From assembly GCA_902765855.1 (NCBI GenBank), contig CACXBF010000006.1, positions 1-64,000 of the forward strand: a DNA stretch of 64,000 nucleotides, read 5' to 3'. Source of the stretch: an uncultured Ruminococcus sp. GTDB lineage: Bacteria; Bacillota; Clostridia; Oscillospirales; Acutalibacteraceae. Every line of letters starts with the position of its first letter. Positions within the stretch are counted from its first letter, which is position 1. The notes under the pieces are model-generated. The model worked only from the letters and a program-made list of their open reading frames with translations. It made no database searches and was not told the DNA's origin. Below are positions 13,847 through 50,530 of this stretch, piece by piece. A program made the translations under genes and the position numbers.

Positions 13847-15784
13847 ATGGATAAGAAAACATTCTATATAACAACACCGATTTATTATCCGTCAGGCAAT
13901 CCGCATATCGGACATTGTTATACTACGGTTGCCTGCGATTCTATCGCAAGATATAAGCGTATGCAGGGCTACGATGTAATGTTCTTGACAGGCACAGATG
14001 AACATGGTCTTAAAATAGAGCAAAAAGCCGCTGAGAAGGGCGTAACTCCAAAGGAATATGTTGATGAAATCGTTGCTATTTTTAAAAACCTTTGGAAATA
14101 TATGAACATAAGCTATGATAGATATATCCGTACAACTGACGATTATCATGTAAAAAGTGTTCAGAAAATTTTCAAAAAGCTTTATGATAAGGGTTATATC
14201 TATAAGGGTGAATATAAGGGCAAATACTGCACTCCTTGCGAAAGTTTCTGGACTGAATCTCAGCTCAAAGACGGCAAATGCCCGGATTGCGGCCGTGATG
14301 TTGTAGAAGCTAAGGAAGAAGCATATTTCTTTAAGATGGCTCCTTTTGCTGACAGAATTGAAAAGCTCCTCACAGAAACAGACTATCTCCGTCCAAAGAC
14401 TCGTGCAGTAGAGCTTGTCAATAACTTTATCAAGCCAGGTCTTGAGGATTTGTGCGTATCAAGAACAAGCTTTAAGTGGGGTATACCTGTAACTTTCGAT
14501 ACAAACCATGTTGTCTATGTTTGGATTGACGCACTTTCAAACTATATAACTGCTCTTGGCTATGAGAATGACCAATATGACGATTACAAAAAATATTGGC
14601 CTGCTGATGTTCATATGGTTGCAAAGGATATTATGCGTTTCCACGCTATAATCTGGCCTGCAATGCTTATGGCTCTTGAAGAACCACTTCCTAAGCATCT
14701 TGCTGTTCATGGTTGGATTACTTTCAACGGTGAAAAGATGAGTAAATCACTCGGAAATGTTGTTGACCCTCTCGTTCTTGGCGAAAGATATGGTGCAGAC
14801 GCTATTCGTTATCATATCCTCAGAGAAATGGCTCTCGGTTCGGATAGCTCATTCTCTAACGAAATTATGATTAAACGCATTAACTCCGACCTTGCAAACG
14901 GTCTTGGCAACCTTGTTTCAAGAACCGTTGCAATGGTAGAAAAATATTTTGGTGGAACTCTCCCGACAGAGCGTGAAAGTGGTGAATTTGACGAAAGTCT
15001 TATCGAAACTGCAAAGGCTCTCCGTCCTGCTGTTGATGATTATGTTGAAAAAACACAGCTTAATAATGCTCTTGCAGAAATATTCAAAGTTGTTTCTCGT
15101 GCAAATAAGTATATTGATGAAACTACACCTTGGATTCTTGCAAAAGACGAAAATAACAAGATTCGTCTTGCTACTGTACTCTACAATCTTCTTGAAACAA
15201 TTCGTATTATCTCAACACTTCTTTCTGCATTTATGCCTACAACTATGCCAAGTATCTGGGAACAGATTGGTGCTTCTAAGGAAGATGTAAGCTATGAGAA
15301 TGCAGCTAAATTCGGCGTGCTTCCTTTAGATGTTACTGTTAAGAAGGGTGAAGTTCTCTTCCCAAGAATTGATGTTGATAAGGAAATTGAAGAACTTAAC
15401 GCACTTATTGCTAAAAATCAGCCTAAAGAAACAGCAAAGCCCAAAATAGAAGGTCTTGCTCAGATTGGTATAGATGATTTCGCAAAGGTAGAACTCAGAG
15501 CTGCAAAGATTCTTGCTTGTGAGCCTGTCAAGAAGTCCAAAAAGCTTTTGAAACTAACGCTTGATGATGGTGAAGGCGAAAGAACTGTCGCAAGCGGAAT
15601 TTCACAATATTATAAGCCTGATGAATTAGTCGGAAAGACAATCGTTCTTGTTGCAAATCTCAAGCCTGCAAAGCTTTGTGGAGTTGAGAGCAATGGTATG
15701 ATTCTTGCCGCTGATTGTGGAGAAGATGATGTAAAGGTATTGTTCCTTGATGATTCAATCCCGGCAGGTAGCCGAATCCGTTGA
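13847..15784 (+). CDS. metG: Methionyl-tRNA synthetase
   Basis: The enzyme charges tRNA-Met in the cytosol. It shows the class I HIGH signature (PHIGHCYT, about residues 19-26), a zinc knuckle pair (CTPC...CPDCG, about 126-148), the KMSKS loop (about 297-301) and a C-terminal EMAP/OB-type tRNA-binding domain (about 540-645, from IDDFAKVELRAAKI). Length 645 is normal for the Bacillus-type enzyme. A GGAGG ribosome site precedes the ATG. tatD lies downstream, as in many Firmicutes, but a repeat element separates them. Confidence 0.97.
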   Translation: MDKKTFYITTPIYYPSGNPHIGHCYTTVACDSIARYKRMQGYDVMFLTGTDEHGLKIEQKAAEKGVTPKEYVDEIVAIFKNLWKYMNISYDRYIRTTDDYHVKSVQKIFKKLYDKGYIYKGEYKGKYCTPCESFWTESQLKDGKCPDCGRDVVEAKEEAYFFKMAPFADRIEKLLTETDYLRPKTRAVELVNNFIKPGLEDLCVSRTSFKWGIPVTFDTNHVVYVWIDALSNYITALGYENDQYDDYKKYWPADVHMVAKDIMRFHAIIWPAMLMALEEPLPKHLAVHGWITFNGEKMSKSLGNVVDPLVLGERYGADAIRYHILREMALGSDSSFSNEIMIKRINSDLANGLGNLVSRTVAMVEKYFGGTLPTERESGEFDESLIETAKALRPAVDDYVEKTQLNNALAEIFKVVSRANKYIDETTPWILAKDENNKIRLATVLYNLLETIRIISTLLSAFMPTTMPSIWEQIGASKEDVSYENAAKFGVLPLDVTVKKGEVLFPRIDVDKEIEELNALIAKNQPKETAKPKIEGLAQIGIDDFAKVELRAAKILACEPVKKSKKLLKLTLDDGEGERTVASGISQYYKPDELVGKTIVLVANLKPAKLCGVESNGMILAADCGEDDVKVLFLDDSIPAGSRIR

Positions 15785-15795
15785 TTAGCTAATGC

Positions 15796-15950
15796 ACTTC
15801 TCTAAGACACTTAAAAGTTTCGCTCGAGCCTTTGTAAAGGCTCGCAGGGCCGAGGGACAGAGTCCCTCGTGGGTTTTAAGGGCAAAGCCCTTAACATTCT
15901 TTACACTCTAAGTGCGGACTTTGTCCACCCTTAATGACTAATGTTGCTAA
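15796..15950. repeat. Palindromic intergenic repeat, left half-unit
   Basis: It begins with the terminal sequence CTTCTCTAAGACACTTAAAA. A chain of short hairpins follows: CGAGCCTTT/AAAGGCTCG, GAGGGAC/GTCCCTC, AAGGGC/GCCCTT and GGACTTTGTCC. It ends near ACTAATGTTGCTAAT. It occupies the whole metG-tatD gap and may act as a terminator. Confidence 0.8.
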
Positions 15951-29814: not shown

Positions 29815-30225
29815 GGAAGTTTGAAAGCAACATTAGTTAATAAGGGCGGACAAAGTCCGCCCTTTGGGGGCAAAGAGATGTTAAGGGCGTTGCCCTTAAA
29901 ACCCACCAAAGGCTCCGCCTTTGGAAACTGCAAGCTTTTGAAAAAGCTTGAGCAAAACTTTTGAGTGTCTTAGAGAAGTGCGTTAGCTAAGCGGTAGCTC
30001 ATTGGGAATTTCCCAGACTGCGTCAATAAACTTCCCTTGGTGGTGGCGGCTCGCCACCGAACTATGTTCGCCCGTTCGGTAGCTCATTGGGAATTTCCTC
30101 GACCGCGTCAACTATCTTACCACGCTCACTACGAGCGAGACTTGTCGAGCGATTCCGCGTCTTGTCCTGTGCGGTCACGCACCGCGTCTTGGCGGTGGCG
30201 GCTCGCCACCGCCCTTAACAACAAA
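29815..30225. repeat. Composite palindromic intergenic repeat
   Basis: Several modules are joined: GGGCGGACAAAGTCCGCCC, AAGGGCGTTGCCCTT, CCAAAGGCTCCGCCTTTGG, a right end with CTTAGAGAAGTGCGTTAGC, and outer modules containing GACCGCGTCAA and GGCGGTGGCGGCTCGCCACC. It fills the pyrG-dapL gap and may both terminate pyrG transcription and separate dapL. Confidence 0.8.
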
Positions 30226-31555: not shown

Positions 31556-31612
31556 AAGCCGATAGGGTTGCAGGTGATACCCTCGGAAATATTACAGCTT
31601 AAAAAGGCATAA
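31556..31612 (+). pseudogene. Relic of the 3' end of a second tyrosine integrase
   Basis: The stretch reads GCC GAT AGG GTT GCA GGT GAT ACC CTC GGA AAT ATT, encoding ADRVAGDTLGNI. This is the same peptide found near the end of the intact integrase at 32050. A short deletion follows, then AGCTTAAAAAGGCATAA, identical to that gene's last codons but out of frame. It lies on the opposite strand, outside the current element. It is therefore a decayed remnant of a related integration. Confidence 0.75.
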
Positions 31613-31620
31613 AATAGAAT

Positions 31621-31834: not shown

Positions 31835-31879
31835 TGGAGCTGATAGGCAGGCTCGAACTGCCGACCTCATCCTTACCAA
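31835..31879. repeat. attL: 45-bp copy of the tRNA-Thr 3' end
   Basis: Identical over 45 bp to 41153-41197, covering the T arm, acceptor 3' strand, CCA and part of the anticodon stem of tRNA-Thr. The sequences diverge immediately beyond (ACCAAT versus ACCAAG). This is the displaced att copy created by integrase-mediated insertion into the tRNA gene. Confidence 0.93.
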
Positions 31880-31984
31880 TGTTATTTGTACCGTTTTGTG
31901 ATGTTTTGCAATGTGTAGAAAATGGCTTGTTTATGCGGTTTTTATACTGTTATAATGATGTAAACCTTTTTAATTTCAATAAAA

Positions 31985-32017
31985 TAAAGACCAAGTAAAG
32001 ACCAAATAAAGACCAAA
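31985..32017. repeat. Three 11-bp direct repeats, probable integrase arm sites (left)
   Basis: TAAAGACCAAG, TAAAGACCAAA and TAAAGACCAAA run head to tail between attL and the integrase. Two more copies lie beside attR at 41064-41085. Tyrosine integrases with an N-terminal arm-binding domain use such repeats to build the intasome. Confidence 0.65.
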
Positions 32018-32046
32018 AATAAAAGCTACTCTTACAAGTAGCCTTT
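32018..32046 (-). terminator. Integrase terminator
   Basis: On the minus strand, GCTACTTGTAAGAGTAGC forms a 6-bp stem flanked by A-rich and T-rich tracts (AATAAAG...TTTTATTTTT), directly after the integrase stop. Confidence 0.75.
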
Positions 32047-32049
32047 ATT

Positions 32050-33237
32050 TTATGCCTTTTTAAGTTGTAAATCACTTACAATATTGCCGAGGGTATCACC
32101 TGCCACCCTGTCGGCTTCCTCTATGGCGTGGACGTATCTATTTGTTGTGGTTATTTGAGCGTGTCCCAGTCGAGCAGATACATTCTTGATATTAGCACCG
32201 CTCACGAGTAGTAAGGTTGCCGAAGTGTGTCGGAGTGCGTGGAACTTCTTGTGCGGTAGTCCGTTTCTTTTCAGGAAGTCCGAAAACATAAGTGTTGGTG
32301 AAGTTGGATATATAACGCTTCCGTCACTTTGGATAAATACCCAGTTAGCACCTTTCCAAGCTGTGCCGAGCTTTAAGCGTATTTCCGCCTGTTGTGCCTG
32401 CCAACGCTTCAATAGCTTTATGCAGTATTCAGGAATAGCCACTTTTCGGCTTTCGTGTGTCTTTGTGTCCTTAGTTTGAATAGGTTCACCCTTGATTTTA
32501 TAAAGACTCTTGCTAATGTGTATAGTCCGCTCATTGAAATTTATATCCGACCATTCGAGAGCGGCAAGCTCCCCACGCCTGCACCCTGTATTTATTGCAA
32601 GGTGTATAAGAACTTGAAACATAAGCGGTTCATTATCCAAACATTGGAGCATTTCTGCAAGCTCTTCCTTGCTATATATTTCTGTTGTCTGCTCTCCCAT
32701 TGCGGGGAGCTTTATTTTTTGGCTATCGGCGGGATTTGAAGCAATCAGTTCAAGCCTGTAAGCATTGTGTAGAATAGATTGAAGCACAACATAGTAACGG
32801 CGTACTGTCGCAGGTTTATAGGGCTTTCCCTTGCCGTCAAGGCGGTATTCTCCAGAAGTAAGAGCATTAACGAATTTCTGAATGTGCAGGGGCTTAATAT
32901 CCTTTAATTTCAGATGACCGAGAGCGGGGATAATTAGTTCCCGAATAATACGCTTATAATTCTCAAGCGTGGTTACTGAAATCTCGCCCTGAACATTTTC
33001 GAGGTATTGAGGAATGAAGTCCGCAAGTCTAAGACTTCCGCAGGCTGAAACTGTTCCATTTTGTACCCGTTCTTCAAAAAGCGTTGCCTGCTTTTTAACT
33101 TCCTTTTCAATCTGCCTTGCAGTCATTCCATTTTCAGGCTTCCAAGTCATAGACTGAACTAATTGTTTTCCGCTCACATCATAACCACAAGATACCCTTA
33201 TACGGTAGCTGTCACCTCTTTTGGTTATCGTTGCCAT
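32050..33237 (-). CDS. int: Tyrosine recombinase integrase of the element
   Basis: Residues about 1-60 form the arm-DNA-binding domain (MATITKRGDSYRIRVSCGYD) and about 70-165 the SAM-like core-binding domain. The C-terminal catalytic domain shows the R-K-HxxR-H-Y set: TGCRRGELAALEWSDI, FHALRHTSATLL, LGHAQITTTNRYVHA with the final Tyr nucleophile. At 395 residues it is of normal length. ATG 33237 is preferred, since the GTG at 33246 is too close to AAGGA. It lies next to attL and reads toward it, as expected for a tRNA-site integrase. The repressor gene is 14 bp upstream. Confidence 0.95.
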   Translation of the reverse strand: MATITKRGDSYRIRVSCGYDVSGKQLVQSMTWKPENGMTARQIEKEVKKQATLFEERVQNGTVSACGSLRLADFIPQYLENVQGEISVTTLENYKRIIRELIIPALGHLKLKDIKPLHIQKFVNALTSGEYRLDGKGKPYKPATVRRYYVVLQSILHNAYRLELIASNPADSQKIKLPAMGEQTTEIYSKEELAEMLQCLDNEPLMFQVLIHLAINTGCRRGELAALEWSDINFNERTIHISKSLYKIKGEPIQTKDTKTHESRKVAIPEYCIKLLKRWQAQQAEIRLKLGTAWKGANWVFIQSDGSVIYPTSPTLMFSDFLKRNGLPHKKFHALRHTSATLLLVSGANIKNVSARLGHAQITTTNRYVHAIEEADRVAGDTLGNIVSDLQLKKA

Positions 33238-33251
33238 TGCTTTCACCGTCC

Positions 33252-33824
33252 TTAAAATGGTAAATCATCGTCGCTTATTATTGATAACTTGCTATTATCG
33301 ACAATTTGTTTTATTTTGTTTTTGTTAATTACTTTCCCACTATCTGTTATTAAAATTTTATCACTGTATTTTTTTATCAAACCATTGATTAAATCGTTTT
33401 TCATTTCGGGAGTCATTAACTTGGTTATTTGTTCCATTCGCTGAATAGAACTGTATTCATCAATAAATAATTTTATATTACTTGGTATTTCAGCATTCAA
33501 ATAACATAATGTTTCAGCAAAATTTGTTTTAGTATTTGCTGTTATATCGAACTTGTCCATTAAATTCAATATATTTAACAATATAGTTGCTGTTTCGCTT
33601 CCGCCTGTGTTTACTTTTTTCTCTATTCCACATAACCAGTCAAGCGAAACGCCAAGAGCAACCGCAATTTTTGCAGCACTTTCAAGCGTTGGAGCTTTTG
33701 TCCCCTTTTCGTAATATGATATTGCAGTAGATGTAACTCCCGACTTTTCGGATAACTCTTTATAATTTAGCTTTGCCGCTTGCCTTGTTTCGGTTAATCT
33801 TTCAGAAAATATTTTCAAATCCAT
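33252..33824 (-). CDS. XRE-family repressor with N-terminal HTH
   Basis: Residues about 5-62 form a Cro/CI-type helix-turn-helix (RLTETRQAAKLNYKELSEKSGVTSTAISYYEKG...). A C-terminal domain of about 120 residues has no family I recognise. It sits upstream of int in the same direction and is divergent from the excisionase/primase genes, the position of a master repressor (Stl/CI-like). The ATG follows AAAAGGTG. Three AGAAAAATATT repeats in its upstream region may be its operators. Confidence 0.85.
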   Translation of the reverse strand: MDLKIFSERLTETRQAAKLNYKELSEKSGVTSTAISYYEKGTKAPTLESAAKIAVALGVSLDWLCGIEKKVNTGGSETATILLNILNLMDKFDITANTKTNFAETLCYLNAEIPSNIKLFIDEYSSIQRMEQITKLMTPEMKNDLINGLIKKYSDKILITDSGKVINKNKIKQIVDNSKLSIISDDDLPF

Positions 33825-33890
33825 AAAAACACACCTTTTACATCTTTTCTTTTATTTTATATTTTATTTTTGAATAAGTCAATAAAAAAA

Positions 33891-33977
33891 GAAAAATATT
33901 TTTTTCTTTTATAATTGAAATTTATAGAAAAATATTTCGCTTTTTGCGAAAAAATTCGCCTTTTTAGAAAAAATATT
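33891..33977. promoter_or_regulatory. Candidate repressor operators
   Basis: GAAAAATATT (33891-33900), AGAAAAATATT (33926-33936) and AGAAAAAATATT (33966-33977) recur about 35-40 bp apart between the repressor start and the divergent promoter. AT-richness makes chance repeats possible. Confidence 0.35.
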
Positions 33978-34023
33978 GATATTTTAATTAAAATATAGCT
34001 AAGCTATAAAAAACTAACAAATG

Positions 34024-34052
34024 TTGACAAACAAAAAAGTAGAGAGTATAAT
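34024..34052 (+). promoter_or_regulatory. Rightward promoter of the element
   Basis: TTGACA (34024-34029) and TATAAT (34047-34052) with exactly 17-bp spacing form a consensus promoter. It leads into the small ORF at 34080 and probably the replication genes. Confidence 0.85.
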
Positions 34053-34079
34053 AAAATAAAAAGAAAAGAGGTGATTTTA

Positions 34080-34250
34080 ATGTTGGATTTATCCAAGTTA
34101 ACAGATAAAGAAAAAGCGGTTGTACTTGCAAGGCGTGAGTATATGCGAAAGTGGAGAACTGCAAACCCTGACAAACAAAAAGAATACAGCGACCGATTTT
34201 TTGAAAAACAGATGAAGGAACAGCAGAAGAAAAATTTATTACAATCTTAA
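34080..34250 (+). CDS. 56-residue charged protein of the element
   Basis: It encodes MLDLSKLTDKEKAVVLARRE and continues through YMRKWRTANPDKQKEY to a Lys/Gln-rich end. Similar short Arg/Lys-rich ORFs containing a YMRKWRxxNPDK motif are frequent in clostridial phage and island early regions; function is unknown. AGAGGTG lies 7 bases before the ATG and the consensus promoter at 34024 is directly upstream, so expression is likely when the repressor is relieved. Confidence 0.7.
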   Translation: MLDLSKLTDKEKAVVLARREYMRKWRTANPDKQKEYSDRFFEKQMKEQQKKNLLQS

Positions 34251-34292
34251 TGATTGAATAGTTAAGTTTATACAATCTAAGGCACAAATAAA

Positions 34293-34392
34293 GCCGTCTA
34301 AGGTGCTGCAACACCCCAAACGGCAAAAGAAAAGCGAACCCATACGAAAAAATCCGCTCTCGGTTATATTTTAACATTCGGGAGCGGTTTTG
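34293..34392 (+). terminator. Two consecutive hairpins before the excisionase-like gene
   Basis: First, GCCGT...GGTG-CTGCAA-CACC...ACGGC (34293-34324). Second, CCGCTC (34354-34359) pairs with GAGCGG (34382-34387), followed by TTTTG. The second looks like a terminator or attenuator between the 56-residue ORF and the gene at 34428. It also contains the element's recurrent GAGAGCGG-type motif. Confidence 0.5.
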
Positions 34393-34427
34393 TAAATCTT
34401 AAAACTGAAAGGATTGACTAAAAAATT

Positions 34428-34763
34428 ATGGAAAACAATACATCAGCCTATAAAAATTACATACCACAAGTAGAACCTTATACCGTTCCCAGAGTTATAG
34501 GCATTAAGCAAGCCGCCGCTGAATTTGGCATATCTGAATATGCTATCCGCCGTTGGATAAAGTCGGGACAGCTCCCAGTAATAACCTGTGGCAAGCGTTT
34601 TCTTGTAAATTGCACTGTGCTTTCTAAGTTTTTAGAAAACAGCTCTCGCTTTCAAGCTGACAAGCCTAAGCATGTTGCTATTGATGATAAGGGGCAGATA
34701 TATTCCGCTCTCGATATGACCGCACAACGCAAGCATAGCAGTAAAATTAGACCTATTTATTAA
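34428..34763 (+). CDS. Excisionase-like MerR-type helix-turn-helix protein
   Basis: Residues about 20-65 contain VIGIKQAAAEFGISEYAIRR followed by WIKSGQLPVITCGKRFLV, a winged-helix fold of the Xis/MerR ('helix-turn-helix domain 17') class with the R-x-W-I-x-x-G-x-L-P signature. Such proteins direct excision or activate early genes. It is the first regulatory gene rightward and lies 12 bp before the primase gene. The ribosome site AAAGGA is about 13 bases from the ATG, longer than usual. Confidence 0.75.
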   Translation: MENNTSAYKNYIPQVEPYTVPRVIGIKQAAAEFGISEYAIRRWIKSGQLPVITCGKRFLVNCTVLSKFLENSSRFQADKPKHVAIDDKGQIYSALDMTAQRKHSSKIRPIY

Positions 34764-34775
34764 GGCGGTGTCAGC

Positions 34776-36617
34776 TTGAACAATAAAGAAAAAATAGAGC
34801 AAATACAAAAAACTGCTTTAGAAGATATTTTAGACCTACAAGAATACAAAGCCCTAAAACCATTTTTATACAAAGGCAGAGAAAATGCAATACCGCTCAC
34901 CGAACATTTTTCGGAGCTTGAAAACAAGGGTGTTAGTATTGATATTATAAATGCTTTAGCCGAAAAACTTTGTCTTTACGGAAATATCGAGAAAGGCTTT
35001 TATCTCCCGAGTGACAGCGATTTTGAATACGAAACCGCCCTTAAATCAGCCGAGAAAAATGTTCTTGACGAGAACGTCAGAAAATATATAAGGTCGTTAG
35101 AAAGTATAGAGGAAATACAAGATTTTCAGGCTGAAATTTCAGAATTTGCGATTAAGCAAAAACACAAGAAAGATTTAACCGACTTGGTGAAGACAGCTAT
35201 TACACAGCTTAAAAAACGAATAAGGGAATACGAGCAAGCCGAACGAATGGAAAAATACAGACAGCAACGCTCAAGGCGAGAATCAAGACTTCCTGACTGG
35301 GCATACCTTGACAACAAGGACAGACCACGCATAGACGAAAGGCTTTACATAGAACACCTTATAAATGAATGTGGCGAGGTGCGTTGCTGGAACGGTAAGC
35401 TGAGAACACTAAAGGGCTTGTTTCGTGACAATGAAGCTCTTAATCTTATTCAGAATGAAATTTCACAAGTAATAAACTATAAGATTGCAAATACTGCTTG
35501 TGATATTCTCAAGGCTCTTAAAAATCGTTGTTACTGCGAAGAACCGCCGCTCGACAGAAAACACATATATTTTCAGAATGGAACTCTTAAAGTTGATGAT
35601 AAAGGCTTATTTACTGTTTTTTCAGAGCAAAAAGAATTTTGCAGAAACAGACTTTTAACTAACTACAATCCGAACGCACCCGAGCCGAAAATGTTCCTTA
35701 AATATATGAACGACCTCTACACTTCCGAACAGATACGCACAATAAAGCAGTATTTGGGCTATTGCTTTATACCGACAAACAGACTGCAAATATGCTTGCA
35801 TATTTACGGTTTAGGCGGTAGCGGTAAGAGCCAGTTGGGCGGCATTATGGCGAAAATTTTCGGTGAAGAAAACAGCACTATTGATAAAATATCCAAGCTC
35901 GGAAAGACTTTCGGGGCGGCGAATATCGAAAATAAGCTGCTTTTTATCGACGATGATGTAACAGAGCAGGCACTTGAAAGGACTGAATTTTTTAAGTCTA
36001 TTGTTACCGCTCCCGATGACGTCAAGCAGGAGTTTGAAGCCAAGTACAAGCAGGAAAATCGCATAATGCCTTATTCAAGGTTTCTTACCTTTGGAAATTT
36101 CACTTTCCGCAGTCTTTACGATAATACAGACGGTTTTTATAGGAGAATATTGGTTCTTGAATGTAAGCCTGCTCCTGTCGACCGCCAAAAGATAAAGAAT
36201 CTTGATGAGAAAATTTTCAGAAGTGAAGCCGAAAGCATTGTTAAATGGTGCGTTGAGGGCTTAAACGATTTAATACAAAACGATTGGGAGCTGTATATTT
36301 CTGACAGCGTTAAAACTCATTCAGATAACCTGAAATATTCCGATGACAGCGTAGAACAATACATAACCGAGAGCGGAAATGTTTGCAGAGGTGCAGGATA
36401 CAGAATAGCAACTTGCGACCTTTTTCAGGATTATTGCCAATTTTGCGAGGATAACTCTCTTATAGCAGTAAAGCAAAGAACTTTTGCACAAACTCTTAAA
36501 GAAAGAGTGGGAAAGTATAAAATCAACCCAACAAACCACACCAACAAAATAAGGGATAACAGAGAAGTTAGGGGCTTTGTGGGCATAGCCTTAAAAAATA
36601 CCGATAATATATATTGA
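34776..36617 (+). CDS. P4-family (D5-like) primase-helicase replication protein
   Basis: The C-terminal half is an SF3-type helicase: Walker A GLGGSGKSQ (about residues 345-353), Walker B LLFIDDDV (about 387-394) and the following motif RFLTFGNF (about 428-435). The D5_N domain precedes it (about 200-340), and a P4-type winged C-terminus follows (DSVEQYI...FQDYCQFC). The N-terminal 150 residues are helical and charged; no primase active site is obvious, so it may be helicase only. TTG start with AAGGCGGTG upstream. Immediately downstream lie iterons, fitting an origin-binding replication initiator. Confidence 0.88.
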   Translation: MNNKEKIEQIQKTALEDILDLQEYKALKPFLYKGRENAIPLTEHFSELENKGVSIDIINALAEKLCLYGNIEKGFYLPSDSDFEYETALKSAEKNVLDENVRKYIRSLESIEEIQDFQAEISEFAIKQKHKKDLTDLVKTAITQLKKRIREYEQAERMEKYRQQRSRRESRLPDWAYLDNKDRPRIDERLYIEHLINECGEVRCWNGKLRTLKGLFRDNEALNLIQNEISQVINYKIANTACDILKALKNRCYCEEPPLDRKHIYFQNGTLKVDDKGLFTVFSEQKEFCRNRLLTNYNPNAPEPKMFLKYMNDLYTSEQIRTIKQYLGYCFIPTNRLQICLHIYGLGGSGKSQLGGIMAKIFGEENSTIDKISKLGKTFGAANIENKLLFIDDDVTEQALERTEFFKSIVTAPDDVKQEFEAKYKQENRIMPYSRFLTFGNFTFRSLYDNTDGFYRRILVLECKPAPVDRQKIKNLDEKIFRSEAESIVKWCVEGLNDLIQNDWELYISDSVKTHSDNLKYSDDSVEQYITESGNVCRGAGYRIATCDLFQDYCQFCEDNSLIAVKQRTFAQTLKERVGKYKINPTNHTNKIRDNREVRGFVGIALKNTDNIY

Positions 36618-36620
36618 TTG

Positions 36621-36942
36621 TTTCGGACACTTTATAAATTCTGTTTCGGACACATAAAACGCCGTTTCGGACACTTCTCGGACACTTTGAAAATACCTTT
36701 AACACCGCATAAATACTCGGCTTTTTAACATTTCGGACATATGGACACTTAAAAAACTATTCTCTATTATATAGCAAAAAAAATCTCTATATACACTTTT
36801 ATTCAAGTATGTGTGTTTTTTTATTTATATATTATATATAGTTTTCGGGTAGCGTCCGAAGCGTCCAAGTGTCCGAACCCCAGTATTTATGCGGATTTAC
36901 AAGTTTTTTAAGTGTCCTGCAAGTGTCCGAAAGTGTCCGAAA
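36621..36942. promoter_or_regulatory. Candidate replication origin: inverted iteron arrays around an AT-rich core
   Basis: The left arm has TTTCGGACAC at 36621, 36644 and 36665, with variants at 36676 and 36731. The right arm carries the inverse, GTGTCCGAAA, at 36923 (one base short) and 36933, with variants near 36852 and 36869. Between them, about 36750-36845 is extremely AT-rich (TATATAG, TTTATTTATATATTATATA), as in a duplex-unwinding element. It directly follows the helicase gene, as in P4-like and PICI replicons. Confidence 0.7.
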
Positions 36943-36985
36943 ATACCAATTACTGGAATACACAGCAGGAAAGGACTAATTATTT

Positions 36986-37516
36986 ATGACAGAAAATATA
37001 AATATTTGGAAATTAAACCGAGGAATTAGAAAGGCAAAGAAAAGTCTTGAGCGTAAGCATAAAGATGAATTTATACCATATAGAGCAAGTCTTAGGCTTA
37101 TGTGTGAAAAATATGCAATGCCTGAATATTTTACCCCTATTCGCAATAGAATTTATAATGAAGCAGACAAAAACGAGCTAAAAATGGACTATATTTACAT
37201 TAGCTTAAATGACCTTGAAGATATATATTTAGACAGCACAAGCATAATTGCTTTTTGGGATATTCTCAAAGGTTATTTTGACATAGAGTTTTTAAAAGAA
37301 TTCAGGCATTGGTTATCATCTATGAATAATGAGGAAAAATTCTACTGGGATTTTACCAAAGCAATAAAAACAGCGAAAATATCTCAGCTTGAAGAGCATA
37401 AACAAGCGTATGAAAAATATAATAAGGTAAATAAAACTGATATGTGTAACAGGCTTTTAGCTATTGTAAATTCTGAAATTGACCGCCGAAAACTGTTCAA
37501 GCTCATAAAGCTTTAA
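36986..37516 (+). CDS. Hypothetical element protein, mostly helical
   Basis: 176 residues rich in Lys, Glu and aromatic residues, with no signal peptide, membrane helix or recognisable motif. The N-terminus is strongly basic (RGIRKAKKSLERKHK). An AAAGGA ribosome site precedes the ATG. It lies just beyond the candidate origin and is the last rightward gene before the non-coding region, so a role in replication or phage interference is possible but unsupported. Confidence 0.65.
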   Translation: MTENINIWKLNRGIRKAKKSLERKHKDEFIPYRASLRLMCEKYAMPEYFTPIRNRIYNEADKNELKMDYIYISLNDLEDIYLDSTSIIAFWDILKGYFDIEFLKEFRHWLSSMNNEEKFYWDFTKAIKTAKISQLEEHKQAYEKYNKVNKTDMCNRLLAIVNSEIDRRKLFKLIKL

Positions 37517-37557
37517 TATTTCAGCACAGCTCTTTTATAGGGCTGTGTTTTTCTTTT

Positions 37558-37628
37558 CCGCTCTCAAATTATTGGAATATATTGGAGTATGTTGGAGTAT
37601 GTTGGAGAATGTTGGAGTATGAGAGCGG
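37558..37628. repeat. Five tandem 10-bp repeats between inverted octamers
   Basis: TTGGAATATA, TTGGAGTATG (twice), TTGGAGAATG and TTGGAGTATG occupy 37572-37621. CCGCTCTC (37558-37565) and GAGAGCGG (37621-37628) flank them as an inverted pair. Iteron-like spacing of 10 bp places repeats on one helix face. Confidence 0.75.
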
Positions 37629-38053
37629 TATAGTTTTAGTTCAGTTTTTAATCGAACCAAGAGCGAACCAAGAGCCAAGCTCCAGGATTGAAGCCGTGAG
37701 GAAGCCGAGAGATAAAGACTATAAAGACCGCTCTCGTTGATGATAGTAGCTTCACCTTGACGGCCTAACTTAAAGTTAGACCGTTCTCGTTGATGATGTA
37801 CATTCCATAATTTGATGTTTTCAAGGTTGCCATTTCGTCCGCCTTTGCTTACAGGCACATTCCCATTTTGGGAATCTGTCGCTTAATAACATCTTGTAGG
37901 AGTCATTAAAACAGTGATACCTTTACAACTCATTCCCTCAACACTAATAATTAACCAGCCGAACGAAATTCGTACGCTTGGTATAACAAGACCGCAGGGC
38001 GGTGTTTCAAAGACTGTCACCCTCCTCACCGAGAGCGGATACCTAATGCTTAT

Positions 38054-38200
38054 ATAGAATAGTCCTATTTTGCCCATAATTGGCTTGAGAGCGGTTTTAT
38101 ATAATAATCAAGATAATTTAATGCTAAATTCAGCATAGGCTTACAGTGGCTATTAACGGCAAAAGAATGCTTTCCGAAAAAGCGGAAACCATTCCGACAG
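38054..38200. repeat. Structured 147-bp unit, copy A
   Basis: Aligns nearly end to end with 38541-38687, with close identity in the first 50 bp (ATAGAATAG...CTTGAGAGCGGTTTTATATA) and at the end (TTCCGACAG). Its terminal hairpin (38165-38194) has 11 of 12 positions paired. Confidence 0.85.
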
Positions 38201-38540
38201 TCCATACGAATTTGTGGGCAACTATTTAACTTAATAATTTCGTACGAAATCCATACGAAGTTATTGAGAGTCCGCCGAGCGGACTCCTCAAAATTGAGGA
38301 CTGCTGAAAGTTTAGCAGTGAAAACTTGAGGACGGCTCAAAATTGAGCCGTAAAAACTTGAGAAAACCTGAAATAATTTGACATCAAGGTATATAGTGTT
38401 TTACGACCTACCATTTTAACCCGCTCATTTTTGAGCGAAACACCTAACTTGAAGTTAGAGCGTTAGAGTGTAGATTGAATCACCTACCCCTTATATAGTG
38501 GTATCAGTTTAGCTCATATAAATAATAACAATTAATAACA

Positions 38541-38687
38541 ATAGAATAGCCCTATTTCGTCCAGAATTGGCTTGAGAGCGGTTTTATATAACATTCAAGA
38601 AAGAAATACGGTTAAATTCAATCTAAGCTCACAAGGGCTATAAACAGCAAAAGAACGCTGTACGAAAAATGTACGGCGTTCCGACAG
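38541..38687. repeat. Structured 147-bp unit, copy B
   Basis: Second copy of the unit at 38054, 487 bp downstream. The terminal hairpin (38653-38681) keeps its pairing while bases differ: T-A to C-G, T-A to G-C and C-G to A-T relative to copy A. A third, partial copy of the first 25 bp lies at 38809-38833. Confidence 0.85.
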
Positions 38688-39174
38688 CTTCCCCTAATTC
38701 TGGGGAAACCTATTCATTTTCAGATGTACGAATTTCGTTCGGCTGGCTACCGCATTTCACCGTAGCCTTAACCCGCTAATTTTTAAGCAAGTTGGATATT
38801 GTTTGTGGAATAGCTCTATTTTGCCCAGAATTGCCCTGTAACGCATTTTATTCAGATTTTCATATAATTTACCTCTGAACACATCAAGTCGTTTGTGAGG
38901 CTTTAAAGCCAAATTATAAACAAGTGCAAGTCTTGAAAATAAATGGCGTTTTTTTCGTGCAACTTCATAAATAAGCATAAGTCTTGTAAATAAAAGGAGT
39001 TTTTTCCACAGAACAGAGCCGCCCGATGTGGCTATACCTTTGCGGAAACTTTTCAGCCTGCCCCCTTACCTCCAGTAAAGCCGAGAGCGGTATAATTCCG
39101 CTCCCAATAAACAAAGAAAAGAGCGACAAGCCGAAGCCTACCGCTCTCAAAAATACTGCTTTTTACAGCATTTT

Positions 39175-39393
39175 TTAAACTATCTTATCAAGATTATCCC
39201 AGTCAATCTCATTAGCGGAAATATATCCGCTTTGCTCTGCTTCCTCAATCTCTTTGCGTTCCTTTGGTGTTACCTTTGTAAAATCAGGATCCCACGCAAG
39301 TACCAATTTTTTGATAAGCTCATATGCTAAATCTTTGTCACTATCCGGAAGCATATCAATCATTTCAGCTATTTGTGCAGTCTTAGCAGTCAT
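39175..39393 (-). CDS. RelB-like antitoxin
   Basis: 72 residues starting with an amphipathic helix (MTAKTAQIAEMIDMLPDSDK), then LAYELIKKLVLAWDPDFTKV and an acidic Glu-rich tail. This resembles small antitoxins paired with RelE-type toxins in clostridia. It is 12 bp downstream of the toxin, an inverted order relative to most relBE operons. AGGAGG lies 5 bases before the ATG. No obvious DNA-binding domain is present; that function may lie in the ribbon-helix-helix protein upstream. Confidence 0.7.
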   Translation of the reverse strand: MTAKTAQIAEMIDMLPDSDKDLAYELIKKLVLAWDPDFTKVTPKERKEIEEAEQSGYISANEIDWDNLDKIV

Positions 39394-39405
39394 AAATAAA
39401 ACCTC

Positions 39406-39666
39406 CTATTTATAAATATCACCACGAGAGCCAATGTCAATAATATATACAATTTCAATTTCGCCATTAACTCCGTATTTATATATTACTCTATACTTTC
39501 CAACTCTAAGCCTTTGCCTACCGTCATTATACCCTTTCATAACTTTTATATCACCTTGTGGCGGTGATAAAGTCAATCCTTTTATAGCTTCTCTTATTCT
39601 TTTAACGGTTGATTTTTCAGTCTTAGAAAGAAATTTAAGTGAACTCTTTGAATATACTATCTCCAC
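39406..39666 (-). CDS. RelE/ParE-family toxin
   Basis: 86 residues with the RelE fold signatures: VEIVYSKSSLKFLSK at the N-terminus, the IREAIKGL helix, GDIKVMKGY and the strand RLRVGKYRVIYKY with conserved Arg and Tyr, ending in YIIDIGSRGDIYK. Such toxins cleave mRNA on the ribosome. I choose GTG at 39666, with AGAGGAG 7 bases upstream; an upstream ATG would overlap the preceding gene by about 38 bp. It lies between two small proteins, either of which could neutralise it. Confidence 0.88.
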   Translation of the reverse strand: MEIVYSKSSLKFLSKTEKSTVKRIREAIKGLTLSPPQGDIKVMKGYNDGRQRLRVGKYRVIYKYGVNGEIEIVYIIDIGSRGDIYK

Positions 39667-39670
39667 TATC

Positions 39671-39865
39671 TTACTCCTCTCCGCTCTCACGCTGAATAGT
39701 TTCGTCAATAGCTCTCTTGATAAAGCCGTTCAGGCTCTCGCCCTTGCGGTCGGCGTGGGCTTGTATTGTGGCTTTAGAACCCTTTTTCACTCTAACCTTA
39801 ATTTCGTCATAGGCTTTTGCGTTATATTTGGCTACTGCTTTTCTTTGCGATTCTGATATTGACAT
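39671..39865 (-). CDS. Ribbon-helix-helix (Arc/CopG-like) protein
   Basis: 64 residues: VAKYNAKAYDEIKVRVKKGS followed by KATIQAHADRKGESLNGFIK, which matches Arc-type RHH DNA-binding proteins with the beta strand (DEIKVRVKKG) and SLNGFIKRAI helix. It is first in the toxin operon and ends 4 bp before the toxin GTG. It is likely the autorepressor, and possibly the antitoxin itself. AGGAAAGGTGG precedes the ATG. Confidence 0.8.
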   Translation of the reverse strand: MSISESQRKAVAKYNAKAYDEIKVRVKKGSKATIQAHADRKGESLNGFIKRAIDETIQRESGEE

Positions 39866-39897
39866 TTTAACGCCACCTTTCCTATTTTACATAAATA

Positions 39898-39926
39898 ATT
39901 ATATCATAATTGTTATACTGTGTCCA
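39898..39926 (-). promoter_or_regulatory. Promoter of the toxin-antitoxin operon
   Basis: On the minus strand TGGACA and TATAAT are separated by 17 bp. Similar ACTGGACACAGTATA / ACTGGGTACAATTTG / AATGGGTACAGTAGTA motifs lie at 39914-39928 (-), 39942-39956 (-) and 39983-39998 (+). They may be operators for the RHH protein acting on both divergent promoters. Confidence 0.65.
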
Positions 39927-39974
39927 GTAGCAAAATGCACAAATTGTACCCAGTATATTCGTTAATTATACCGA

Positions 39975-40003
39975 TTGAATAATAATGGGTACAGTAGTAT
40001 AAT
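39975..40003 (+). promoter_or_regulatory. Promoter of the HIRAN gene
   Basis: TTGAAT (39975-39980) and TATAAT (39998-40003), spaced 17 bp, face right, divergent from the toxin-antitoxin promoter. Confidence 0.7.
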
Positions 40004-40045
40004 ATAGACAGTTAAGGAAACCGAGAGCGGAAAGAGGTGCTTAAA

Positions 40046-40468
40046 ATGTTCAACCGTTCAATTATTTGCAAGACTGCTAATAAGCTAAGAAAAAACGGAT
40101 ATACACTTTCACAAGCGTTCAGAATGTCGTGGAAGCTTGCCAAAGCTAAGGCGGTTGTAAAGGTTGCAGGCGTTAGCATAGGCAATAGACAAAGAGCTAT
40201 TGAACATCTTAGAGAATATGCCCTCGATTCAATCAAGGTTACCTTGACAAGAGAGAAAGCCAACACACACGATAGCAACGCAATAGCTGTTAATATATCC
40301 GTAAATGCTTCACAGCCTGTGAAAGTTGGGTATATTCCCGCTCCCGTAGCCTCCTTGCTTAGTGGTGTTATAGACACCATATCGGGCATTAAGGCAAGCG
40401 TACAGGCTATTACAGGCGGTTACTATGAGGATATGCTTAGTGGTTTAAGGCTTTCGCTGTCATTCTGA
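40046..40468 (+). CDS. Small HIRAN-domain protein
   Basis: 140 residues. After a basic N-terminal helix (about 1-45), the segment VKVAGVSIGNRQRAIEHL followed by VTLTREKANTHDSNAIAVNI and VKVGYIPAPVASLL matches the HIRAN fold, which binds 3' ends or damaged and stalled DNA forks. Standalone HIRAN proteins occur on bacterial mobile elements. ATG at 40046 has AAGAGGTG 7 bases upstream; the in-frame GTG at 40037 falls inside that site. It may act in element replication or defence. Confidence 0.7.
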   Translation: MFNRSIICKTANKLRKNGYTLSQAFRMSWKLAKAKAVVKVAGVSIGNRQRAIEHLREYALDSIKVTLTREKANTHDSNAIAVNISVNASQPVKVGYIPAPVASLLSGVIDTISGIKASVQAITGGYYEDMLSGLRLSLSF

Positions 40469-40517
40469 AAGGGGTCACGTTTCAAATGATACCCTTGAAA
40501 GGAGATGAATATATTAT

Positions 40518-40694
40518 ATGCAAAGTCTAATACTTAGCCCACAGGATATAGCTACGCTTCTGCTATTGAATGTTGCTGTGCTTAATGTCATTGAGGGCAA
40601 TATGTCAGAAGATGTTATTGACGAGCTTAAAACCTTGCAATCAGAGTTAGAACAAATACTTTACAAAGACGGAAGCCCTGTATTTCAAATGTGA
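40518..40694 (+). CDS. Hypothetical 58-residue protein
   Basis: The sequence starts MQSLILSPQDIATLLLLNVA and continues with an acidic helical part (EDVIDELKTLQSELEQIL). AAAGGAG lies 13 bases upstream, a long spacing. It lies 49 bp after the HIRAN gene and 35 bp before the next small ORF, suggesting one transcript. No family recognised. Confidence 0.5.
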   Translation: MQSLILSPQDIATLLLLNVAVLNVIEGNMSEDVIDELKTLQSELEQILYKDGSPVFQM

Positions 40695-40729
40695 GAAAAT
40701 GTTAGAGAATTTGAAAGGAGTTTTAGAAA

Positions 40730-40933
40730 ATGGATTTAAAAACACGAAATGAACTTGAAAATTTACTTGTAGAATTTAGCGGGGTTAATCAGCTTATGCT
40801 AATGCTTTCCGATTGTGCTTTAGAGGGCTGCAATTCAATGGATTACTACCCTAACGGAATTAGCAGTATATCAACACTTGCAAACAACTGTTATAATAAA
40901 CTAAGAGCAATCGTATATGGCAATGATGAATAA
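40730..40933 (+). CDS. Hypothetical 67-residue element protein
   Basis: An acidic, helical small protein (starts MDLKTRNELENLLVEFSGVN) with two cysteines near the middle (DCALEGC). GAAAGGAG precedes the ATG. It is the last gene before attR. No family recognised; its small size and place suggest an accessory island gene. Confidence 0.55.
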   Translation: MDLKTRNELENLLVEFSGVNQLMLMLSDCALEGCNSMDYYPNGISSISTLANNCYNKLRAIVYGNDE

Positions 40934-41063
40934 TCTTCTAAGCTGTCGCAATAGCGGCGGCTTTTTTGCTACTATCCCCCCGAGGGAGAGCGGAGTTATT
41001 ACCTGAATTTCTGACACCTGACAGGCGCCTATTTAAGCACAAATAATTCCCAAAATGAGAAAA

Positions 41064-41085
41064 CAAAGACCAAATAAAGACCAAA
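41064..41085. repeat. Two 11-bp direct repeats, probable integrase arm sites (right)
   Basis: CAAAGACCAAA and TAAAGACCAAA match the three copies at 31985-32017, placing the same motif at both ends of the element. Confidence 0.65.
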
Positions 41086-41102
41086 TTCATATTTTTAGGC
41101 AT

Positions 41103-41139
41103 AAAAAAATCAAGCCCACTTGCGAAGAAAGGCTTGATT
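41103..41139 (-). terminator. Terminator of the tRNA cluster
   Basis: Minus-strand AATCAAGCC...GGCTTGATT stem followed by seven T residues, 14 bp after tRNA-Thr. It is carried by the element, so integration restores both the tRNA 3' end and a terminator. Confidence 0.8.
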
Positions 41140-41152
41140 AAGCGGTTTTTAA

Positions 41153-41228
<76 letters not shown>

Positions 41229-47142: not shown

Positions 47143-47174
47143 AGATGGTTTGCATCTATGATTAGTGAATAGAT

Positions 47175-47491
47175 TTCTCTAAGATAATTAAAAGTTTCGC
47201 TCGAGCCTTTTTAAAGGCTCACAGTTTCCAAAGGCGGAGCCTTTGTTGGGTGTTAAGGGCAATGCTCTTAACATTTTTTGCTCATAAGGGAGGACTATGT
47301 CCGCCCTTATTTACTAATGTTGTTAACAAAAGAAAATGAATCGGCGGATAAAATCCGCCGATTTTAAGAAAAAATAAATGTTGGGCAAAGCCCAAAGGTG
47401 TTTCGCTCTCTGCGGAGAGCGACAAGGGCGTTGCCCTTGACCTACGAGCCTTTGAAAAGGCTCGAGCGAAACTTTTAATTTTCTTAGAGAA
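47175..47491. repeat. Complete MITE-like palindromic repeat with 31-bp terminal inverted repeats
   Basis: The left end (47175-47205, TTCTCTAAGATAATTAAAAG...) and right end (47461-47491) are inverted copies with one mismatch. Between them are the family hairpins: CCAAAGGCGGAGCCTTTG, AAGGGCAATGCTCTT, GGCGGATAAAATCCGCC, TTGGGCAAAGCCCAA, CGCTCTCTGCGGAGAGCG and AAGGGCGTTGCCCTT. It encodes no protein. This is the clearest full unit in the window. Confidence 0.85.
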
Positions 47492-47594
47492 GTGCGTTAG
47501 CTAAGCGGTAGTTTAGCCCTTTGCGTGGATAAACTTCTTATGCTTATTACAAGCAAAACTTTTATTTTTAATGATTTTGGGAAATTACCAATTT

Positions 47595-50010: not shown

Positions 50011-50530
50011 GCGGCGAGCCGCCGCCGTCAAGACGCGTAATCGCTCGACAAGTCTAGCTCGACACTTATAAGAGAAGTTTGTTGACGCGGTCGAAGAAAC
50101 TACCGCGTAGCTAACAAACTACCCTTAGACAATTAAAAGTTTTGCTCAAGCTTTTTCAAAAGCTTACGGATTCCAAAGGCGGAGCCTTTGGTGGGTTTTA
50201 AGGGCAACGCCCTTAACATCTCTTGCCCCTAAAGGGCGGACAAAGTCCGCCCTTATTGACTAATGTTGCTAATGAGAGAAAATTAAGCGGTGGACGAAGT
50301 CCACCGCTTAAGGAGCAAAGAATGTTGGGCAAAGCCCAAAGGTGTTTCGCTCTCTGCGGAGAGCGACCAAAGGCTCTGCCTTTGGAAACTGCAAGCCTTT
50401 GAAAAGGCTTGACCTAAACTTTGAGTGTCTTAGATAAGTGCATCAGCTAAGCGGTAGTTCACTTGGAATTACTTCCACCACATCAATAAGTTTTCCTTAC
50501 ACAGACCGAGCGAAACTTTTAATTTTTGTT
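50010..50530. repeat. Composite palindromic intergenic repeat
   Basis: An outer GGCGGCGAGCCGCCGCC module and the GTTGACGCGGTCGAAGAAAC motif lead into a near-complete unit (about 50125-50436). It has hairpins CCAAAGGCGGAGCCTTTGG, AAGGGCAACGCCCTT, GGGCGGACAAAGTCCGCCC, GCGGTGGACGAAGTCCACCGC and GCTCTCTGCGGAGAGC. The ends are less alike than in the 47175 copy. Confidence 0.8.

Follow-up and report, generated by a model that had tools for sequence, protein, structure and literature searches.

The hairpin-rich segment around 37955-38746 of the 64,000-nucleotide stretch of uncultured Ruminococcus DNA analysed here (the window) is probably a non-coding mosaic cargo, made of palindromic units and antirepressor debris and carried by a PICI-like integrative element; we put the probability of this reading at about 0.58. 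An earlier note on this DNA had proposed a large structured RNA at this place. The mosaic is favoured by the homology of parts of the segment to ORF6N and Bro-N antirepressors, by copies of its unit, by a partial paralogue on another contig (C20), by the lack of a whole relative, by a ~330-bp repeat of the same genome that shows the same property, and by a fold that is almost equally strong on both strands. We count against it the compensatory changes, a leader that is more conserved than the sequence downstream, a promoter-like site found in both copies, weak plus-strand signs and a folding rank of 17 among 1,138 windows.

Building blocks of the segment

The perfect 21-bp inverted repeat that brackets this gene-poor segment (arms 37955-37975 and 38726-38746) can be extended to arms of 24 nt (37952-37975 and 38726-38749), which are 96% complementary and spaced by 750 nt. 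The repeat had been claimed before and is borne out: when the 1,301-bp region was dinucleotide-shuffled 500 times, no repeat with separated arms exceeded 14; a looser count allowing palindrome-type overlapping arms reached up to 20 in 300 shuffles, which is the wrong null for separated arms. Likewise, the two copies of a structured unit reported earlier were recovered. A unit of ~130 nt recurs with a first block of 60 nt at 90% identity (38054-38113 and 38541-38600) and a second of 57 nt at 79% (38125-38181 and 38613-38669). On the basis of repeat comparison, folding and a local-hairpin scan, we delimit unit A at 38054-38200, with a hairpin at 38165-38194, and unit B at 38541-38690, with a hairpin at 38653-38681, both on the plus strand. 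A degenerate third copy in the same orientation (38805-38871) is 63% identical over 38805-38864, and its part 38808-38871 shares 88% identity with sequence from a genome of the same genus (G084). Windowed folding and the hairpin scan place the densest hairpin cluster, including three related tandem hairpins, at 38230-38360, and a hairpin pair follows at 38410-38475 (folding z -5.2).

Parts of the segment and its flank derive from broken antirepressor genes. At the 5' arm, a plus-strand ORF6N remnant (37949-38051, NEIRT...LLTESGYLML) was recognized by DNA and blastp alignment: it is 72% identical in DNA to an intact gene on another contig (L014:408-1181; genome-wide E=1.9e-6), itself ORF6N by Pfam (E=9.5e-16), and 18/32 residues match in blastp, while its own Pfam score (E=0.29) is below cut-off. 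Upstream, a Bro-N remnant on the minus strand (37709-37786) matches a phage Bro-N protein at 19/26 residues in blastp and the PHROG anti-repressor family at E=0.002, with a nucleotide match in addition and a sub-threshold Pfam score of E=0.029. Pfam alone misses both remnants, and the identification comes from the alignments taken together. The likeness to phage ORF6N and Bro-N antirepressors is thus one of local homology; unlike those genes, what is present here are fragments only, in opposite orientations and under the Pfam cut-off. The view that the region is gene-free holds in so far as none of five overlapping ORFs of the window that were compared with Pfam reaches a cut-off, but has to make room for the sub-threshold ORF6N remnant.

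The sole sizeable relative of the segment is the partial paralogue on contig C20 of its own genome, which is 76% identical over window positions 37877-38181 and lacks the remainder; it lies ~2 kb from another integrase ORF, read by eye as a tyrosine integrase. The leader at 37877-37954 (plus strand) is nearly identical in C20, whereas downstream of the 5' arm the similarity becomes patchy before returning in unit A. The leader ends in the promoter-like site TTTACA-18-AATAAT (37922-37951), the top-scoring such site in both regions, although the same scan finds promoter-like sites about as frequently in shuffles. The closing stem has no counterpart in C20, and an 801-nt stretch of C20 folds little better than shuffles (z -1.9). 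Differences between copies by codon position (13/86, 15/84 and 9/83; 9/48, 12/49 and 7/46) reveal no third-position excess, so a 118-aa ORF of C20 does not behave as a conserved protein and was rejected as such. This ORF had no match in PHROGs, Pfam or a phage tblastn search, and its in-frame matches in the window contain stops. In the DNA beside the C20 paralogue (L013:5370-10056), inspection by eye suggested two ORFs resembling DNA methyltransferases, one that may encode a restriction enzyme and one resembling a dGTPase, which are possibly defence cargo.

The mosaic would have three kinds of building block: antirepressor genes reduced to fragments (Bro-N upstream, on the minus strand; ORF6N at the 5' arm, on the plus strand), the palindrome-bearing ~130-nt unit, present twice and once in degenerate form, and short palindromes of a few recurrent types. 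The 5' arm lies inside the ORF6N-like remnant, and the 3' arm repeats the same letters in inverted orientation. The 21-bp stem may have originated when ~24 nt of ORF6N-like sequence were copied in inverted orientation to a place 750 nt away, as template switching in replication could do. The hairpins would then reflect palindromic DNA undergoing duplication and recombination among the elements of this genome. A transcript from the shared leader would fold, though not necessarily under selection as a single 0.8-kb RNA. The remnants, the unit copies, the paralogue, the missing codon-position signal and the absence of a convincing Rfam match are observed, whereas we infer in which order the events took place, how the copying occurred and that the segment lacks a function.

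Folding and compensatory changes

The predicted fold is strong on either strand, with -254.8 kcal/mol (z -11.0) for the 801 nt of the plus strand and -257.5 kcal/mol (z -12.2) for the minus strand, each against 20 shuffles. In 200-nt windows, folding peaks at 38201 (z -8.0 on the plus and -6.2 on the minus strand) and is strongest at ~38100-38500, and the mean z between 30 and 43 kb is -3.1 in the segment compared to -0.75 outside. These local z-scores agree with the proposal that hairpin density is far above that of the surroundings, but perfect stems of at least 7 pairs do not, as the 800-base bin 37601-38400 contains 3, while elsewhere in the window a bin can have as many as 9. Nor does the rank in the genome: among 1,138 windows of 800 nt, drawn from the present window and from 20 further 20-kb stretches of this genome, the segment's own 800 nt, added by hand at the exact position, rank 17 after GC adjustment (z -3.2). 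For 600-nt windows covering the segment the best rank is 46 of 1,510, and five of the six strongest of all these 1,510 windows overlap listed places of a dispersed stem-closed repeat described below. At least as striking in folding are an iteron stretch at 36701-36900 (z -8.4) and a copy of that repeat at 47.15-47.5 kb. The number of hairpins, put at ten or more in the earlier note, depends on how they are counted: the predicted whole-segment fold has 21 hairpin loops, but a local search requiring 7 or more Watson-Crick pairs with no more than 2 mismatches gives 5 hairpins, and only 2 hairpins in the segment have a perfect stem of at least 7 pairs.

Two signs weakly favour a plus-strand RNA. 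The local stems contain three G.T and no A.C mismatches, and unpaired T on the minus strand amounts to 0.427 compared to 0.371 in shuffles (sd 0.011). A strand call from unpaired A on the plus strand, only ~1 sd above shuffles, was discarded as uninformative.

The terminal hairpin of the unit keeps its pairing despite differing letters, with 11 of 12 pairs in A, 12 in B and 9 in C20. Between A and B, 9 letters have changed, yet all 12 pairs are present in B and 11 in A. Under an equal number of random changes, pairs would be kept to this extent with P ~8.5e-5 for A to B, 0.014 for A to C20 and 0.0061 for B to C20, and the three tandem hairpins at ~38281-38351 gave simulation values of 0.011 to 0.042; these P values come from a simple simulation and are optimistic, because the hairpins were picked after inspection. 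Of all the results, these compensatory changes are the one that debris alone leaves unexplained. The earlier note had allowed that the hairpins might be decayed mobile-element fragments, and part of the segment is indeed antirepressor debris, but compensatory changes are not what debris by itself would predict.

It is conceivable, if rather unlikely, that the functional part is the unit of ~130-150 nt shared by A, B and C20, acting either as a small structured RNA or, at the DNA level, as a hairpin bound by a protein, with the 0.8-kb frame being incidental. With the same limited likelihood, its scaffold would be fixed and its terminal hairpin would vary in letters but stay paired. Such an arrangement is consistent with the unit alignment, in which identity is high across the first ~115 columns before the letters diverge and the pairing is kept; 8/35 predicted pairs are doubly changed among A, B and C20, 6 of them in the terminal hairpin. 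The leader with its promoter-like site common to the segment and C20, the lack of a coding signal and the fold of unit B (z -3.3) fit as well. However, there are three copies only, from a single genome, the fold of A is weak (z -1.7), and in C20 the hairpin has 3 mismatches and the unit a z of 0.0. A covariance model of the unit gave matches at E <= 10 in 44/200 family genomes, own included, of which 3 were strong and all in the own genome. The best match elsewhere scored 30.5 bits. No convincing relative emerged in these 200 genomes, and we rejected the unit as an RNA family by this model; in the four weaker matches that we inspected, agreement is largely confined to the terminal hairpin, and the best of the four resembles a common terminator. 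A mobile hairpin motif, CCGAAAAA-n-CGG, was also rejected, with 3, 5 and 5 matches on both strands of three genus genomes compared to 1, 6 and 11 for the reversed-pattern control.

Relatives and the case for a single large RNA

Another family of stem-closed DNA occurs in this genome. A hairpin-packed, dispersed repeat of ~330 bp with a long terminal inverted repeat lies at 47150-47500, and also at 50124-50441, 29820-29977 and 15782-15950. Within its own genome blastn gives no fewer than 109 matches, a lower bound as 40/239 candidates were scored, and 18/120 family genomes, own included, have matches to it; a limited literature search found no mention of it. Over 9 copies, 26/72 of its predicted pairs have double changes, more than in the hairpin of the segment, and in the alignment some hairpin modules seem swapped between ends. 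Similar stem-closed, hairpin-rich architecture thus arises in this genome outside the segment. Because this repeat keeps its pairing as letters change, covariation becomes weaker as proof of one large RNA, although an RNA function is not itself disproved by it. The segment resembles REP/BIME or MITE-like repeats in that its palindromes are duplicated within and between loci, in a host genome with a high-copy stem-closed family. It differs in its low copy number (two units, one degenerate copy and one paralogue) and in that copies of its unit were found in or beside integrative elements.

Searches for relatives and known RNA classes yielded little. No full-length relative was found in the own genome or among 300 family genomes; 5/300, own included, had partial matches, which outside the own genome comprised ~28-172 bases only. 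No exact match to the 20-base core of the unit turned up in genome_contigs or viral_contigs, collections that may omit records of the own or a near-identical genome, and three further patterns had 0 in viral_contigs. Nucleotide searches gave no match in 'plasmids' and one of 47 bases in 'phages'. A gene-free region of G084 (L016:8757-9573) was rejected as a relative, given its moderate fold (z -4.3) and only short shared stretches.

ROOL RNAs are encoded in phages and prophages, often near tRNA islands, and GOLLD RNAs have a conserved 3' region. The segment is similar to both in being long, non-coding and rich in hairpins, in belonging to a mobile element and in having tRNAs ~2.4 kb off. At the Rfam gathering score, the whole window contains three tRNAs only, and at E <= 10 the 12 listings for 37500-39180 are all far under the gathering score, with ROOL and GOLLD absent. 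As described in the part of the source available to us, both have Rfam profiles, and these classes rest on covariation analysis of genomic and metagenomic sequences (PMC12286853). The segment differs from them in that neither is among its E <= 10 listings, the nearby tRNAs are host genes, no conserved family was found and part of it is gene debris.

We consider it doubtful that the segment is a single 0.8-kb RNA belonging to a new class, with its start near 37957 and the 21-bp repeat as its closing stem. In its fullest form, an improbable one to a similar degree, this would be a satellite-element RNA transcribed on the plus strand from the leader 37877-37954, with two ~130-nt modules bearing hypervariable but paired terminal hairpins. 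The z of -11, the closing stem, a promoter-like site that ends at 37951 immediately ahead of the 5' arm, and the weak plus-strand signs of mismatch types and minus-strand unpaired T all point in this direction. Set against them are the missing full-length relative, the absence of the closing stem from C20, a minus strand that folds equally well, an arm that sits in an antirepressor remnant, the lack of a plus-strand terminator-like site from the 3' arm to 39300, and the mere ~1 sd by which unpaired A on the plus strand exceeds shuffles. Of the original proposal, then, the fold is real and one helix has compensatory changes in three copies, but the whole-length structure was encountered once, and the closing stem and strong fold are absent from the only sizeable relative; covariation can be followed only in the unit (A, B and C20), as the searches found no full-length homologue. 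If there is a real RNA here, it is more likely unit-sized than 0.8 kb long.

The host integrative element

The segment resides in a 9,318-bp element bounded by two identical 45-bp repeats, the left one (31835-31879) identical to the 3' end of tRNA-Thr and the right one (41153-41197) located in tRNA-Thr. On the minus strand, the element encodes a tyrosine integrase (32050-33246; Pfam Phage_integrase, E=1.3e-29) and a C1/Cro-type regulator (33252-33824; HTH_3, E=1.2e-14). Plus-strand genes comprise an HTH_17 protein by Pfam (34428-34763), presumably excisionase-like, and a pri-rep-like primase-helicase (34776-36617; Pfam DUF5906; PHROG 864 DNA primase, E=2.3e-53), whose relatives occur in 48/300 family genomes, own included, while pattern searches found none in genome_contigs or viral_contigs. 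A probable replication origin follows at 36613-36950 (fold z -8.4), where GGACACTT iterons, four per orientation, surround a 73% A+T stretch (36691-36860) with one iteron inside it. A 176-aa plus-strand ORF of no assigned function (36986-37516; no Pfam match) has matches in 2/200 family genomes, own included, and none by pattern in viral_contigs. A ParE-like toxin is encoded on the minus strand (39406-39708; ParE_toxin, E=6.4e-07), and the small ORFs on either side, with no Pfam match, are candidate antitoxins.

In G084, the sequences on the outer sides of the attachment repeats directly adjoin each other, and the trio of tRNA genes is there as well, indicating a site without the element and that the tRNAs are host genes. 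The description of a mobile element next to tRNAs is right about the element, but the tRNAs are chromosomal, and the analogy with phage-borne tRNA islands is weak.

Several further features were seen in and around the element. The 8-mer GAGAGCGG/CCGCTCTC occurs 16 times in the 9.3-kb element (31881-41152) compared to 4 times in the remaining 54.4 kb of the window, and several copies form inverted pairs; we read the excess as coming partly from repeats and ESG codons in the antirepressor-type remnants. At 37572-37621 lies a tandem 10-bp repeat, TTGGAGTATG, with inverted CCGCTCTCA/TGAGAGCGG on its flanks. Just beyond the left attachment repeat (31556-31616), inverted fragments of 38 nt (92%) and 25 nt (96%) resemble the 3' end of the integrase gene, perhaps a trace of an earlier integration. 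Moreover, 38988-39255 (94%) and 39342-39422 (99%) match DNA beside the element-free tRNA-Thr site of G084 and are perhaps the remnant of a related element.

Gram-positive PICIs are typically ~15 kb and are characterized by phage-dependent induction, packaging and interference. To our knowledge, their attachment sites are never occupied by prophages, and PICI-specific orthologues exist. As in PICIs, the integrase and the C1-type regulator of the element point away from its replication gene, and the modules keep the order of integrase, master regulator and replication. Gram-positive PICI origins, as far as the portion of the source consulted describes them, lie directly 3' of the replication gene, with iteron sets around an A+T-rich stretch (PMC6092414). 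The same placement, with two iteron sets flanking the A+T-rich stretch and one iteron inside it, is found here. No phage structural or lytic gene appeared among 10 element ORFs compared with Pfam, 3 of them also with PHROGs. In contrast to the usual ~15 kb, the element is 9.3 kb, at odds with the size of a typical PICI. Judged from its sequence, it appears satellite-like with a PICI-like gene order. That the segment is a replication or packaging site of this satellite-like element, an origin or a set of single-strand hairpins ~1.3 kb from the replication gene, is very improbable, as the iterons round the A+T-rich stretch directly 3' of the primase gene (36613-36950) are the better origin candidate.

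Palindromic repeat DNA and gene debris can show strong predicted folds, long closing stems and even compensatory changes, so that such features alone do not prove a functional large RNA. Should the RNA reading nevertheless be true, phage satellites would gain a class of structured RNA, and there would be a small system for asking what role such RNAs play.
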